A stretch of DNA of 27,105 bases from a virus: positions 1 to 27,105 of the IMG/VR virus record IMGVR_UViG_3300031857_001121; one strand, given 5' to 3'. Each line of letters opens with the position of its first letter. Position 1 is the stretch's first letter. The notes under the pieces were generated by a model. The model made no database searches. It saw only the letters and a program-made list of their open reading frames with translations, and was not told the origin of the DNA. A program made the translations under genes and the position numbers. Positions 3,063 through 25,939 of the stretch are shown one piece after another.

Positions 3063-3599
3063 ATGTTTTTATTAAACGGAAAACACTTACCAGAAGGAGT
3101 AGGCTTTAGAGACGCTAATGGCACACAGTATGCGTCTAACTGGCTTAACCTATCTACAGAAGAAGAAAAACTAGCTATTGGTATTACATGGGTAGCTGAC
3201 CCTGTTCGTGCAGATGATAGATTCTACTGGGATGGTGATATTAATAACCCTAAAGCTCTTGAAGACAAGCTAGAAGTCAAAGAAGATGGCACACCACTCT
3301 ATAAACAAGTGTATGATAAAGCTACAGAGTCTATGGTTGACACTACAGAACAAGTCGTCACTAAAGGTTTAAAGTCTAATTTTATCTCTCAAGTTAAAGA
3401 TACAGCAGGTTCATTATTAGCACAAACAGACTGGTATATTATTCGTAAAGCAGAACGTAACGTAGATATTCCTGAAGAAATAGCTTTAAAACGCACACAA
3501 ATCGTCACAGAAGCGAATAGATTAGAAACTGATATCAAAGCATCAACTACTGTAGAAGGTCTTATAGAGGTATTAAACGCACAAAACTGGGGTGAATAA
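3063..3599 (+). CDS. Tail-fibre-assembly-like / DUF4376-like protein
   Basis: 178 residues, preceded by AAAGGA. The N-terminal half contains short segments found in small fibre-adjacent proteins (FLLNGKHLPEGVGFRDANGT, ITWVADP). The C-terminal half is helical, with the DWYIIRKAER and IPEEIALKR signature seen in phage fibre-assembly and DUF4376-type proteins (the Q/T-DWY-x-x-R-x-x-E arrangement). Known members accompany fibre genes and probably aid fibre folding or attachment. Its place directly after the 815-residue adhesin, with a one-base stop/start overlap to the next gene, fits that. Whether it is a chaperone or a virion part cannot be told from sequence alone. Confidence 0.55.
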   Translation: MFLLNGKHLPEGVGFRDANGTQYASNWLNLSTEEEKLAIGITWVADPVRADDRFYWDGDINNPKALEDKLEVKEDGTPLYKQVYDKATESMVDTTEQVVTKGLKSNFISQVKDTAGSLLAQTDWYIIRKAERNVDIPEEIALKRTQIVTEANRLETDIKASTTVEGLIEVLNAQNWGE

Positions 3600-22140: not shown

Positions 22141-22481
22141 AAGAAAAGATACTAGCTTATCTTACAGAACCACGAACCATAAACGACATAGCAGAACATA
22201 TACAATCTAACTATCCTATTACAAAGAACATACTTGTAGAGATGAGAGATGCAAATGTTATTCATGCTTACAAAGATAATCAAAATAGACTCATGCACTA
22301 TTACGTGCCACAACCACATCCACTACAAATTATATTTGGACACACAGCAAACTTTACAGATGACCAGATAAAAGGCATTATCATACATAATGCAGATGAC
22401 GCTAAACATAACTTACAACAAAGAACTACACAAGAAACATTTGGACAAAGCGTAGCATATACGCTAACACAATATGATTAG
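22116..22481 (+). CDS. Winged-helix protein
   Basis: Start uncertain: TTG at 22116 has AAGGAA six bases ahead; ATG at 22110 is too close to that site and GTG at 22137 overlaps the previous stop but lacks a clear site. From TTG it has 121 residues. The N-terminal part (VKEKILAYLTEPRTINDIAE, then PITKNILVEMRDANVIHAYK) is a winged-helix DNA-binding fold. The C-terminus ends in a polar tail. It lies just before the Q-like regulator (8-base overlap) and may be a regulator itself. Confidence 0.6.
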   Translation: MQSERCIVKEKILAYLTEPRTINDIAEHIQSNYPITKNILVEMRDANVIHAYKDNQNRLMHYYVPQPHPLQIIFGHTANFTDDQIKGIIIHNADDAKHNLQQRTTQETFGQSVAYTLTQYD

Positions 22482-22803
22482 TATGGAACGTTTATTATCT
22501 ATCCTAGAAGACTGGGCTAGATGGATGAAGTCGGATAATCACAAGCTAGGTTATCCATCTAAAAGCATAGGCATGTCATCAGGTGGTGAGTCTACAAGCG
22601 AAGTGTTTGAAGAAATGTGTTCAGCTCAAGACATGAGTAACATACGCACTATACACGCTATCATACATAGCCTAGAACAAGGACAACAAGACGCTATCTA
22701 TGCTAAATACTTAGGTGCTAAACCACCACTAGCTTATCCATGGCAATTAGACATGGCATACGATAATTTACTGACCATTGCAGGAAGACGGATAAACGCA
22801 TAA
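22474..22803 (+). CDS. Q/RinA-like late transcription regulator (antiterminator candidate)
   Basis: 109 residues from ATG at 22474 (a second ATG at 22483 also possible). The sequence ERLLSILEDWARWMKSDNHK, then LGYPSKSIG, and the C-terminal sigma-70 region-4-like helix (IHSLEQGQQDAIYAKYLG, later LLTIAGRRI) match phage antitermination Q and RinA-like late regulators. Position supports this: it is the last gene of the early rightward operon and a strong promoter with a closely spaced terminator follows at once, as in lambda Q-pR'-tR'. It should allow read-through into the packaging and virion genes. Confidence 0.65.
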   Translation: MISMERLLSILEDWARWMKSDNHKLGYPSKSIGMSSGGESTSEVFEEMCSAQDMSNIRTIHAIIHSLEQGQQDAIYAKYLGAKPPLAYPWQLDMAYDNLLTIAGRRINA

Positions 22804-23789: not shown

Positions 23790-24496
23790 TGCTGAAATTA
23801 GATATATACGTAGGATATGACGGTAAGGTAGAACCAGTTGCATATCATAACTTTTGCCAGTCAGTTATAGAAAAGTCATCTATACCGGTAAGTTTTACAC
23901 CATTAGCATTAAACACTTTAAAAGACTACGAAGAAACACATAAAGACGGTAGCAACGCATTTATCTACTCACGCTTTTTAGTGCCATATCTAAATAACTT
24001 TAAAGGTATCGCATTATTTGTAGATGGCGATATGATATGTAGAACAGATATAGCAGAGATACTAGCGAACTTTGATAATGACGAAGCAGTCAAAGTCGTA
24101 AAGCATAACTACACAACAAAGCATCCTATCAAGTATCTAGGTGCAAAGAACGAAGACTATCCTAAAAAGAATTGGTCTTCAGTAATGTTATGGAACTGTT
24201 CACATTGGTTGAACCGTCAGCTAACACCTAAGTTTGTGCAAGAGCAAACAGGTAAATACCTACACAGGTTTGAATGGTTAAAGTATCCTGAAGAACAAGT
24301 AGGTAAGCTAGACGAAACATGGAACTGGCTAGAAACAGAATACGAATACAACCCAGATGCTAAGTTAGTGCATCACACATTAGGCACACCATGCTTTAAA
24401 GACTATCAGAATACAGACTATAGTCAAGAATGGTTTGAGACGTACCAAAGAATGATATACCCATTAAAAGGAAAAAACAGGGAAAGCGAATTATGA
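23789..24496 (+). CDS. GT8-like glycosyltransferase
   Basis: 235 residues. The N-terminal Rossmann-like part (LDIYVGYDGKVEPVAYHNF, then SNAFIYSRFLVPYLNNF) leads to the DxD metal/nucleotide-sugar motif FVDGDMICRTDI (Asp79, Asp81), and the C-terminal half has NWSSVMLWNCSHW and LVHHTLGTPCF (acceptor and catalytic region of GT8-type enzymes). It would transfer a sugar from a UDP or similar donor. Possible targets are virion proteins, DNA bases or host surface, none decided by sequence. Located between small basic proteins and the packaging genes. Confidence 0.8.
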   Translation: MLKLDIYVGYDGKVEPVAYHNFCQSVIEKSSIPVSFTPLALNTLKDYEETHKDGSNAFIYSRFLVPYLNNFKGIALFVDGDMICRTDIAEILANFDNDEAVKVVKHNYTTKHPIKYLGAKNEDYPKKNWSSVMLWNCSHWLNRQLTPKFVQEQTGKYLHRFEWLKYPEEQVGKLDETWNWLETEYEYNPDAKLVHHTLGTPCFKDYQNTDYSQEWFETYQRMIYPLKGKNRESEL

Positions 24497-24966
24497 ACTT
24501 CTTAGACTATTTAACAAATGCTATGACAGGTGCTGCACCATCTCAACAAGAACTTATGATGAGAGATATGGCTGCAAAAGGGTTATTACAGCAATCTAAT
24601 ATGGGATTAACACCTGACGAACTTAAACTATTAAGACAAAAATCAGGTGCAGCAGCAACTCCATCAGAAATTCAAGCTATTCAGAATGAAAGATTAAGAA
24701 GAGAATCAGGAGCAGCAGTAAGCCCAAGTGAATTACAACGCACTCCAGTTCAAATGCCAGAATATGTGTCTCCTAAAGGGCAAATTCCTTCAGTACAAAT
24801 GCCTCAGGTAAGAAGACAATCAGGTACATTACCACCAGTTCAGATGCCATCTATTTCATCTGGATATATGCAAAACTTAATTAATCCTGGTATGACTATG
24901 CAACAAAACTATATTGACCCAAGACTCATTGAAATGATGTATTATAGAGGGTTACTAAACCAATAA
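24493..24966 (+). CDS. Gln/Pro-rich hypothetical protein with PVQMP repeats
   Basis: 157 residues, ATGA-coupled to the glycosyltransferase. It has two near-copies of a helical unit (LLRQKSGAAATPSEIQAIQN and LRRESGAAVSPSELQ) followed by PVQMP, SVQMP and PVQMP repeats around residues 85-120, and a hydrophobic end (MMYYRGLLNQ). Composition resembles minor virion or linker proteins. No family recognised. Confidence 0.5.
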   Translation: MNFLDYLTNAMTGAAPSQQELMMRDMAAKGLLQQSNMGLTPDELKLLRQKSGAAATPSEIQAIQNERLRRESGAAVSPSELQRTPVQMPEYVSPKGQIPSVQMPQVRRQSGTLPPVQMPSISSGYMQNLINPGMTMQQNYIDPRLIEMMYYRGLLNQ

Positions 24967-24972
24967 AGAAAT

Positions 24973-25039
24973 AAGGCGAAAAGGGTCGCTCCCTGTCATG
25001 CTAACTCATGACTAGCCTTTTTATTCACCTAGTTAGGGG
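24973..25039 (+). ncRNA. Three-way junction RNA with pseudoknot over GIY-YIG ribosome site
   Basis: Closing helix AAGGC/GCCTT (24973-24977 with 25015-25019) encloses hairpin AGGG-TCGCT-CCCT (24982-24994) and hairpin GTCATG-CTAACT-CATGAC (24995-25012). The six loop bases CTAACT (25001-25006) are perfectly complementary to AGTTAG at 25031-25036, which overlaps the AGGGG ribosome site (25035-25039) of the GIY-YIG gene. It may regulate translation of that gene and, with the T run at 25018-25022, may also terminate transcripts. Structure predicted by eye only. Confidence 0.5.
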
Positions 25040-25044
25040 TAAAT

Positions 25045-25593
25045 ATGCAATACTATGTATATCAACTTATAGACCCAAGAAATAGCAAACCTTTCTATGT
25101 AGGAAAGGGTAAGGGCGAAAGAATGTATGCCCATGAGAGAGAAGCTGAAGGTAAAAGTCAGCATCCTAAATGCAGGGTTATAAGGGAAATAAAAGAATTA
25201 GGCTACGTTATAGAGTATAAGATACTCAAAAGGTTTGAAGACGAAGAACAAGCCTATTTATACGAAGCTGAAGTTATATTAGATATAGGACTAGAAAACC
25301 TAACAAACCTAGTTCATGGTGGCAATATAAACACCAATAAACGTAGTAATAATTGCGAACACAGAGCTATGGTATCTTTATTAGCAGTTATACTAAAAAA
25401 GACTCGTGGTAATTTTAGTCATAACACAATGACATTTGCAGGGTTACAATTAGATATAACTAATACTTTAAGAATTATTGTTACTAAAAACCTAGAAAAG
25501 CTATTTGCTAAGAGAGGAATAGACTGGGTATTTAATGAATTTAAGAAGCACAATGTTAATTTATATGTAATTAATCAGGAGCAACCAACCTAG
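25045..25593 (+). CDS. LEM3-like GIY-YIG endonuclease
   Basis: 182 residues, preceded by AGGGG. The GIY-YIG core reads YYVYQLIDPRNSKPFYVGKG (residues 3-22), followed by R26, H30 and YLYEAEVILD (Glu74/76 region), matching the LEM3-like subgroup with the extended DPR-N-x-K-PFYVGKGKG. The remaining ~90 residues are less conserved, with a helical end. GIY-YIG enzymes include free-standing homing endonucleases; its position between a structural-type gene and TerS, with a folded RNA before it, suggests a mobile gene. Target unknown. Confidence 0.82.
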   Translation: MQYYVYQLIDPRNSKPFYVGKGKGERMYAHEREAEGKSQHPKCRVIREIKELGYVIEYKILKRFEDEEQAYLYEAEVILDIGLENLTNLVHGGNINTNKRSNNCEHRAMVSLLAVILKKTRGNFSHNTMTFAGLQLDITNTLRIIVTKNLEKLFAKRGIDWVFNEFKKHNVNLYVINQEQPT

Positions 25594-25609
25594 CGGAGTT
25601 GCGAAAACT

Positions 25610-25939
25610 ATGGAAAATACAGAAAACTTTGAAAAAGTAGAAGGCGATTTATCAAAAGTAGAAAATCGTGGTGGTAGAAGAGAAGGTTCAGGTAGAAAGC
25701 CTGGTGTTCCTAACAAAATGTCAGCCACAGTTAAGCAAAACGTCATTGAAGTGTTTGAGCAATTAGGTGGCGTAGAACACATGAAGCAATGGGCTATAGA
25801 TAACCCTAATAACTTTTATAACATATACGCAAAGATATTACCTACACAAACTGAAATTAGTGGAGCAGATGGCTCTGCATTACCTATCGGAATAGGAATT
25901 ACTTTTGTCAAGCCAGACGATAGCTCAGTTTCCGAATAA
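25610..25939 (+). CDS. Probable terminase small subunit
   Basis: 109 residues. A basic N-terminal part GGRREGSGRKPGVPNKMS (residues 21-38) is the DNA-binding head often found in small terminase subunits and their relatives; a helix VKQNVIEVFEQLGGVEHMKQ and a second NNFYNIYAKILPTQ follow, the usual oligomerisation-type plan. It is placed directly before and overlapping the large subunit. It should recognise the packaging site and activate TerL. The ribosome site is weak (GCGGAG 11 bases ahead). Confidence 0.75.
   Translation: MENTENFEKVEGDLSKVENRGGRREGSGRKPGVPNKMSATVKQNVIEVFEQLGGVEHMKQWAIDNPNNFYNIYAKILPTQTEISGADGSALPIGIGITFVKPDDSSVSE

Follow-up and report, generated by a model that had tools for sequence, protein, structure and literature searches.

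The ribosome-binding sites of I-TevI, segB and mobE in T4-like phages are hidden by RNA structures (PMC2988022). Beyond T4, how the damage and cost of free-standing homing nucleases are restrained in phages is poorly known. The window analyzed here (the whole stretch of DNA under study, a 27.1-kb phage record from IMG/VR) carries, directly ahead of a GIY-YIG nuclease gene, an RNA element that recurs in front of other phage nuclease genes and that is best read, with a probability of roughly 0.8 and on the strength of sequence comparisons, as a cis-acting leader RNA conserved ahead of the free-standing homing-type nuclease genes of phages, in which the kissing of two hairpin loops (those of P3 and P4) would lock the Shine–Dalgarno (SD) sequence and hinder the 30S subunit.

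Locus and Predicted Fold

The intergenic stretch 24967–25044 is bordered by a short gene of unknown function (24493–24966) on the left and by the nuclease gene (25045–25593) on the right, downstream of which there are a small gene and then the terminase large-subunit gene. The 182-aa nuclease also matches a homing endonuclease PHROG (phrog_314, E 3.6e-9). The features of the locus are given below, the other loci compared being designated by L numbers.

24967–25593, plus strand: mobile cassette (leader and nuclease), which L044, L019, L050 and L047 lack between the flanking genes
24973–25019, plus strand: three-way junction core (P1, P2, P3) of the leader RNA, from the minimum free energy (MFE) fold and the match of covariance model R1
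24973–24977, plus strand: P1 5′ strand AAGGC, partner 25015–25019, from the MFE fold, covariation and the L225 variant
24978–24981, plus strand: junction GAAA, its GAA strongly conserved in alignment A2, partly forced by the search pattern
24982–24994, plus strand: P2 hairpin AGGG-TCGCT-CCCT, from the MFE fold and variant P2 in other copies
24995–25012, plus strand: P3 hairpin GTCATG-CTAACT-CATGAC, its loop (25001–25006) predicted to kiss the P4 loop, with all 7 P3 pairs covarying
25015–25019, plus strand: P1 3′ strand GCCTT, from the MFE fold
25020–25026, plus strand: TTTATTC spacer separating P1 from P4, with a T-run (25018–25022) that overlaps P1
25027–25040, plus strand: P4 hairpin ACCT-AGTTAG-GGGT, its loop (25031–25036) predicted to pair with the P3 loop, from the MFE fold of the 78-nt element and the family test
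25035–25039, plus strand: SD AGGGG of the nuclease, within the P4 loop and stem, from the sequence
25045–25593, plus strand: gene of the 182-aa GIY-YIG nuclease, Pfam PF22945 (LEM-3_GIY-YIG), E 3.6e-13

The upstream gene (window 24493–24966; homologues L003–L030) keeps its ends among relatives, i.e., its start and ...YIDPRLxxxMYYRGLL, and is strongly variable in the length and sequence of its middle. The gene after the nuclease (window 25584–25610; L044, L006, L100, L091) has a conserved leader of its own, reading GGGCAACCAACCTAAGGGAGTTGC in the empty-site relatives, with a GCAAC/GTTGC hairpin enclosing the ribosome site; the nucleases of L006, L100 and L091 stand directly behind this host leader, which they seem to use instead.

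RNA folding of 24973–25022 returns exactly the three helices (5, 4 and 6 bp) and the tight junction claimed in the preliminary description: P1 (24973–24977/25015–25019, 5 bp), P2 (24982–24985/24991–24994, 4 bp) and P3 (24995–25000/25007–25012, 6 bp) leave only GAAA (24978–24981) and TA (25013–25014) unpaired at the junction, with zero bases between P2 and P3. This fold is at −15.5 kcal/mol (z −2.37; 7/200 shuffles are equally good), the whole 78-nt element folds with a z of −1.47, and about 1.5% of shuffles of the window sequence contain, within 30 nt, a complement to the whole loop; the window copy alone is weak evidence, being mildly unusual, whereas at the family level the signal is far beyond chance. 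A hammerhead-type ribozyme was considered and rejected, the window being without a CUGAUGA core.

The P3 loop CTAACT (25001–25006) is, just as had been claimed, the exact reverse complement of AGTTAG at 25031–25036, which overlaps the AGGGG SD and lies 8 nt ahead of the ATG at 25045. Overlooked in the preliminary description was a fourth hairpin, P4, already present in the MFE structure of the 78-nt element, the 3′ strand of which carries the SD in the window. Because the paired site sits in the P4 loop, the interaction would be a loop–loop kissing one, with the SD at the edge of the P4 loop and in the 3′ strand. MFE folding alone is blind to such a kiss, as nested folding excludes kissing pairs.

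Distribution of the Leader

Loci of relatives were fetched using the upstream protein, the nuclease and the terminase, and a blastn search of these loci with the 78-nt element found it in L042, L071, L090/L024 and L056/L058 (93–97% identical in the best copies). The core of these first copies then served as a pattern for scanning 2.9 million contigs of IMG/VR, and 30 sequences were used to build a covariance model, R1; the window was among them, so that its match to R1 (24971–25021, 58.4 bits) is that of a training sequence. The scans and R1 together yielded 79 copies (54 distinct sequences), nearly all of which are directly 5′ of a nuclease start codon. True copies score 38–73 bits, whereas chance pattern matches score below 30 bits and are without the P3 hairpin or the loop complement (L145, L154 and L174–L176 were left out as such). 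Since GGCGAA, GGG (later relaxed), GCTCC or GCTCCC, and TAGCC were set in the search patterns, the conservation of the core is overstated; furthermore, the E-values of R1 and of the second model, R2, are rough, and divergent copies escape the fast genome search (record W02 yielded none, though L225 matches in cmsearch).

In the 257 Gb of GTDB bacterial and archaeal genomes, a similar core pattern was matched four times, with one match being real (L173) and the other three being attributable to chance by their model score and absent loop complement; as the pattern is this rare there, the leader element belongs to phages. None was found in the plasmids searched for the leader. A DNA search of isolate phages with the window leader and three other leaders gave one true match, in Escherichia phage EP_H11 (OP688485, L171; leader at 22496–22573 of OP688485), and among seven isolate relatives of two nuclease families the leader is present in L225 only. 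A 114-kb phage contig (IMGVR_UViG_3300043464_001836, G002) has as many as seven model matches, the weakest of which (L223, 14.8 bits) retains a 5-bp loop complement; each of these leaders has its own matched loop and site, and the downstream ORFs read there are mostly HNH-like paralogues (57–61% identical where compared). Zero covariance-model matches were obtained from Rfam 15 at the gathering score, a relaxed Rfam search of the window and L125 gave chance-level matches only, and a literature search, the scope of which did not extend to a 2017 list of 224 candidate RNAs, found no earlier description.

Compensatory Changes across the Family

In alignment A2, 92.9% of the cells are paired, where shuffles give 69.8% and slid controls no more than 53%, and both sides of a pair have changed in 113 cells, as opposed to 36 in shuffles and at most 24 in slid controls (identical sequences were removed from the covariation counts and other kinship was left uncorrected, with the swap control and the pairs of close relatives described below serving as safeguards). 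All seven P3 pairs covary, and so do the outer P1 pairs (e.g., both sides of pair 4/54 of A2 have changed in 12 sequences). P2 and the inner P1 pairs are invariant in the A2 set, where they were fixed by the search patterns; outside the strict pattern, P2 reads GAGG/CCTT (L139, L210, L212), GGA/TCC (L222) or GGAG/CTCC (L223), and P1 reads AGAGC/GCTCT in L225 and has a U-G closing pair in the L168 copy at 3066. In alignment A4, comprising all five helices, 93.9% of the cells are paired, above the 74.3% found in shuffles and the maximum of 53.5% found in slid controls; covariation is seen at 5/6 pairs of the kissing helix and at 3/4 of P4.

The P3 loop forms at least six Watson–Crick pairs with its own site in 27/34 distinct combinations, compared with 2.3% of swapped combinations, and there are 25 different fully complementary 6–7 nt loop/site combinations, in which positions 3–5 use all four bases. 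Relative to the window, L056/L058 show a compensatory change (loop CTAATT, site AATTAG), and such changes separate even close relatives: CCGCTT/AAGCGG versus CCGTTC/GAACGG in L137/L138, whose proteins are 92.7% identical, and CTAATT/AATTAG versus CTAACT/AGTTAG in L108/L110, whose proteins are 89% identical. The full complement is missing, with 5 bp only, in L125, L127, L140 and L149/L168. The spacing between the GCC and the site varies from 6 to 16 nt in the family, and that between the paired site and the ATG from 3 to 11 nt (mostly 6–8). P1, P2, P3 and the loop complement thus all change extensively among homologues and are compensated nearly every time, rather than being broken without compensating changes, the outcome that the preliminary description had named as speaking against it.

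P4 is TATTCT-AAGCGG-AGAATA in EP_H11, TAACA-GGAAAG-TGTTA in L133, TATTC-AGTTAAG-GAATA in L144, TACTC-TTGCAG-GAGTA in L167 and TTCCT-TTGACG-AGGAA in L214, and its stem reaches at least 3 bp in 40/42 distinct copies. The mean P4 stem is 4.1 bp versus 1.9 in swaps, and 0/5000 flank permutations reach 4.1 (best 3.05), this permutation test being the main guard against over-reading, as P4 had been noticed on the same copies later used for the test. R2, which includes P4, recovers the window through P4 at 50.9 bits, with the window outside its training set. On its own, P4 amounts to about −1 to −5 kcal/mol in most copies. P3 and P4 are, by sequence, hairpins with wholly complementary 6–7 nt loops, i.e., a predicted kissing complex. 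Loop pairing near an SD can also activate translation, as it does for repZ of IncI-type plasmids, and pairing of a loop to an SD-proximal site by itself fits repression and activation alike; a pseudoknot exposing or positioning the site and thereby raising translation nevertheless seems improbable here, as the SD is within a P4 stem/loop stabilized by the kiss, which should hinder the 30S subunit.

The T residues behind the closing helix had been proposed as a second, terminator-type function, whereby P1 and the T residues would end transcription before the nuclease as an intrinsic terminator or attenuator, and the window does have TTTTT at 25018–25022 after the junction and a terminator-like match at 24995–25012. 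This proposal fares poorly in the family, where only 28/54 copies are T-rich after P1 (at least five T in 8 nt), few or no T are found in L125, L139 (first copy), L161 and L155, and a stem with a conserved U-tract, as expected of an intrinsic terminator, is not observed; the loop-to-SD pairing and P4 would, moreover, be needless for termination, which is very unlikely to be the function of the leader.

The unpaired part of the core presents another alternative: the conserved junction (GAA, the TNGCT loop and TA) might bind a phage or host signal that makes or breaks the lock, as in a riboswitch-like or protein-responsive switch. The core does seem conserved beyond its helices, and this extends to copies detected by the model and not by the pattern (the L168 copy at 3066 and L224), but L225, in which the loop pairing is intact, has a different P2 loop and P1, and L223, in which it is likewise intact, has GACA and a longer P2. 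As no Rfam family matches and there is no ligand candidate, such a switch is a possibility that we regard as rather doubtful.

Genes behind the Leader and Its Mobility

Each of the first copies (L042, L071, L090/L024, L056/L058) is directly 5′ of the ATG of another nuclease, these being a different GIY-YIG protein, an endonuclease VII and an HNH_3 protein that are 24–26% identical to the window nuclease in a forced global alignment. Downstream Pfam matches, some of them weak, comprise HNH_3, Endonuclease_7, HNH_repeat and the GIY-YIG types LEM-3, T5orf172 and MUG113, and the PHROG matches, some also weak, comprise endonuclease VII, HNH and other endonuclease families. Most of the scanned downstream proteins match a nuclease family in Pfam or PHROGs, if only weakly, with two exceptions: in EP_H11, the leader precedes a 303-aa ORF without a family match, in which a GIY-YIG-like stretch can be discerned by eye, and in L155 (4153–4667, minus strand) it precedes a gene for a replication protein (phrog_26426) instead of a nuclease, the L155 leader being complete, with matched loops CATCAC/GTGATG and a P4 of ACCT/AGGT. 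The link to a mobile nuclease drawn in the preliminary description, therefore, holds and widens to several nuclease families, the leader lying directly 5′ of homing-type nuclease genes (homing itself being putative). Solo copies without an ORF are found in tRNA regions (L126:2806–2922 and L150:2084–2200, minus strand); upstream of both there is a similar short hairpin sequence, TAGCTGG(A/T)TA(A/G)CTCAACCAG. Translational coupling to the upstream gene was considered and rejected: in the window, P1 and the upstream stop codon are 6 nt apart, but stops in the family are located from +2 to −189 nt and none was found for 7/54 copies, and with positions so variable or missing, such coupling is not general.

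In the empty-site relatives L044, L019 and L050, the flanking genes are about 40 nt apart and the leader and the nuclease are both missing, and L047 has the same empty junction. Homology between EP_H11 and the empty relative IME392 stops at L171:1492, about 7 nt before P1; this boundary and the empty-site comparison place the leader at the 5′ end of the insert. Within the window phage group, the CTAACT and CTAATT leader types each occur with several nuclease families, and for at least two families both types have been seen; leader and gene thus recombine. Sister nucleases at the same phage locus can be without a leader (L006, L020, L067, L100), which makes the leader favored, not obligatory.

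In two phage groups the leader lies at the 5′ edge of the cassette, and unrelated nucleases have it in common; both could also be expected if its hairpins were recognized as DNA during insertion. The leader, however, directly precedes the ATG on the coding strand, its paired loop in a fixed position at the SD, and it is present as one copy per gene, with none found at the 3′ end, so that a DNA-level mobility signal has to be considered extremely improbable.

A promoter-like sequence of 36–44 nt ends right at the leader in EP_H11 (22459–22496; L171:1460–1497) and has five further occurrences in the first 49 kb of EP_H11; the mRNA may accordingly start with the leader.

Discussion

The comparisons establish, as far as sequences can, the fold, the loop–loop pairing, the location of the SD in P4 (i.e., in an RNA helix conserved by compensation), the placement of the leader and its presence or absence as a unit, and the interpretation offered in the preliminary description is, overall, supported at this level. 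That the leader represses translation is inferred by analogy with the structures of T4-like I-TevI, segB and mobE. In such a mechanism, P4, weak alone, would be locked by the kiss with P3, which the junction would hold in place; it is because P4 alone is weak that the kiss is the likely lock. Binding of the 30S subunit would be hindered, and the nuclease would be made rarely, or only once the lock opens, perhaps through an elongating ribosome, through a late transcript of reduced length or through the binding of a factor. Several observations sit less comfortably with the SD-locking leader: masking of the SD would require less conservation than the core displays (some of it imposed by the search patterns), some complements are incomplete, L126 and L150 are ORF-less, L155 has the leader before a replication gene and some sister nucleases are leaderless.

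As the same fold precedes several kinds of mobile nuclease gene, the leader looks like a portable volume control for selfish genes. More tentatively, and with odds that we would put clearly below even, it might represent an undescribed RNA family acting as a portable control module for selfish nucleases, i.e., a three-way-junction sensor whose lock opens on an infection-specific signal, a timing device spread by recombination. One RNA fold, most of whose helices clearly covary, being reused by several nuclease families and travelling with them points to selection for self-restraint acting on selfish genes. The leader would offer a compact kissing-loop translation switch (putative, and made testable by the EP_H11 copy), as well as a new marker for such cassettes in unannotated phage DNA.

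Among the known systems, the HEARO/omega-RNA of IscB-type HNH nucleases is likewise a structured RNA beside the HNH gene of a mobile element; these, however, are long guide RNAs associated with one protein family, whereas the leader described here, at about 70 nt, stands ahead of nuclease folds that are unrelated to one another, is paired to its own SD and has no Rfam match. Hiding of the SD by tertiary pairing, three-way junctions and loop kissing all occur among the preQ1-II, SAM-II and purine fold riboswitches, from which the leader differs in its topology and in having no metabolic gene, no known ligand and no Rfam match. Two loops of 6–7 nt paired over their whole length are found in TAR/TAR* and RNAI/RNAII, but here the kiss would be intramolecular and on the ribosome-binding site. 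There is also a likeness to I-TevI, I-TevII, I-TevIII, segB and mobE of Aeh1, where an RNA structure likewise hides the ribosome site of a phage homing endonuclease (PMC2988022); those T4-type structures are described as separate local structures, which late promoters escape, whereas the leader in the window and its relatives is a single homologous fold, a three-way junction with a predicted P3/P4 kiss, which many nuclease families have in common across diverse phages.
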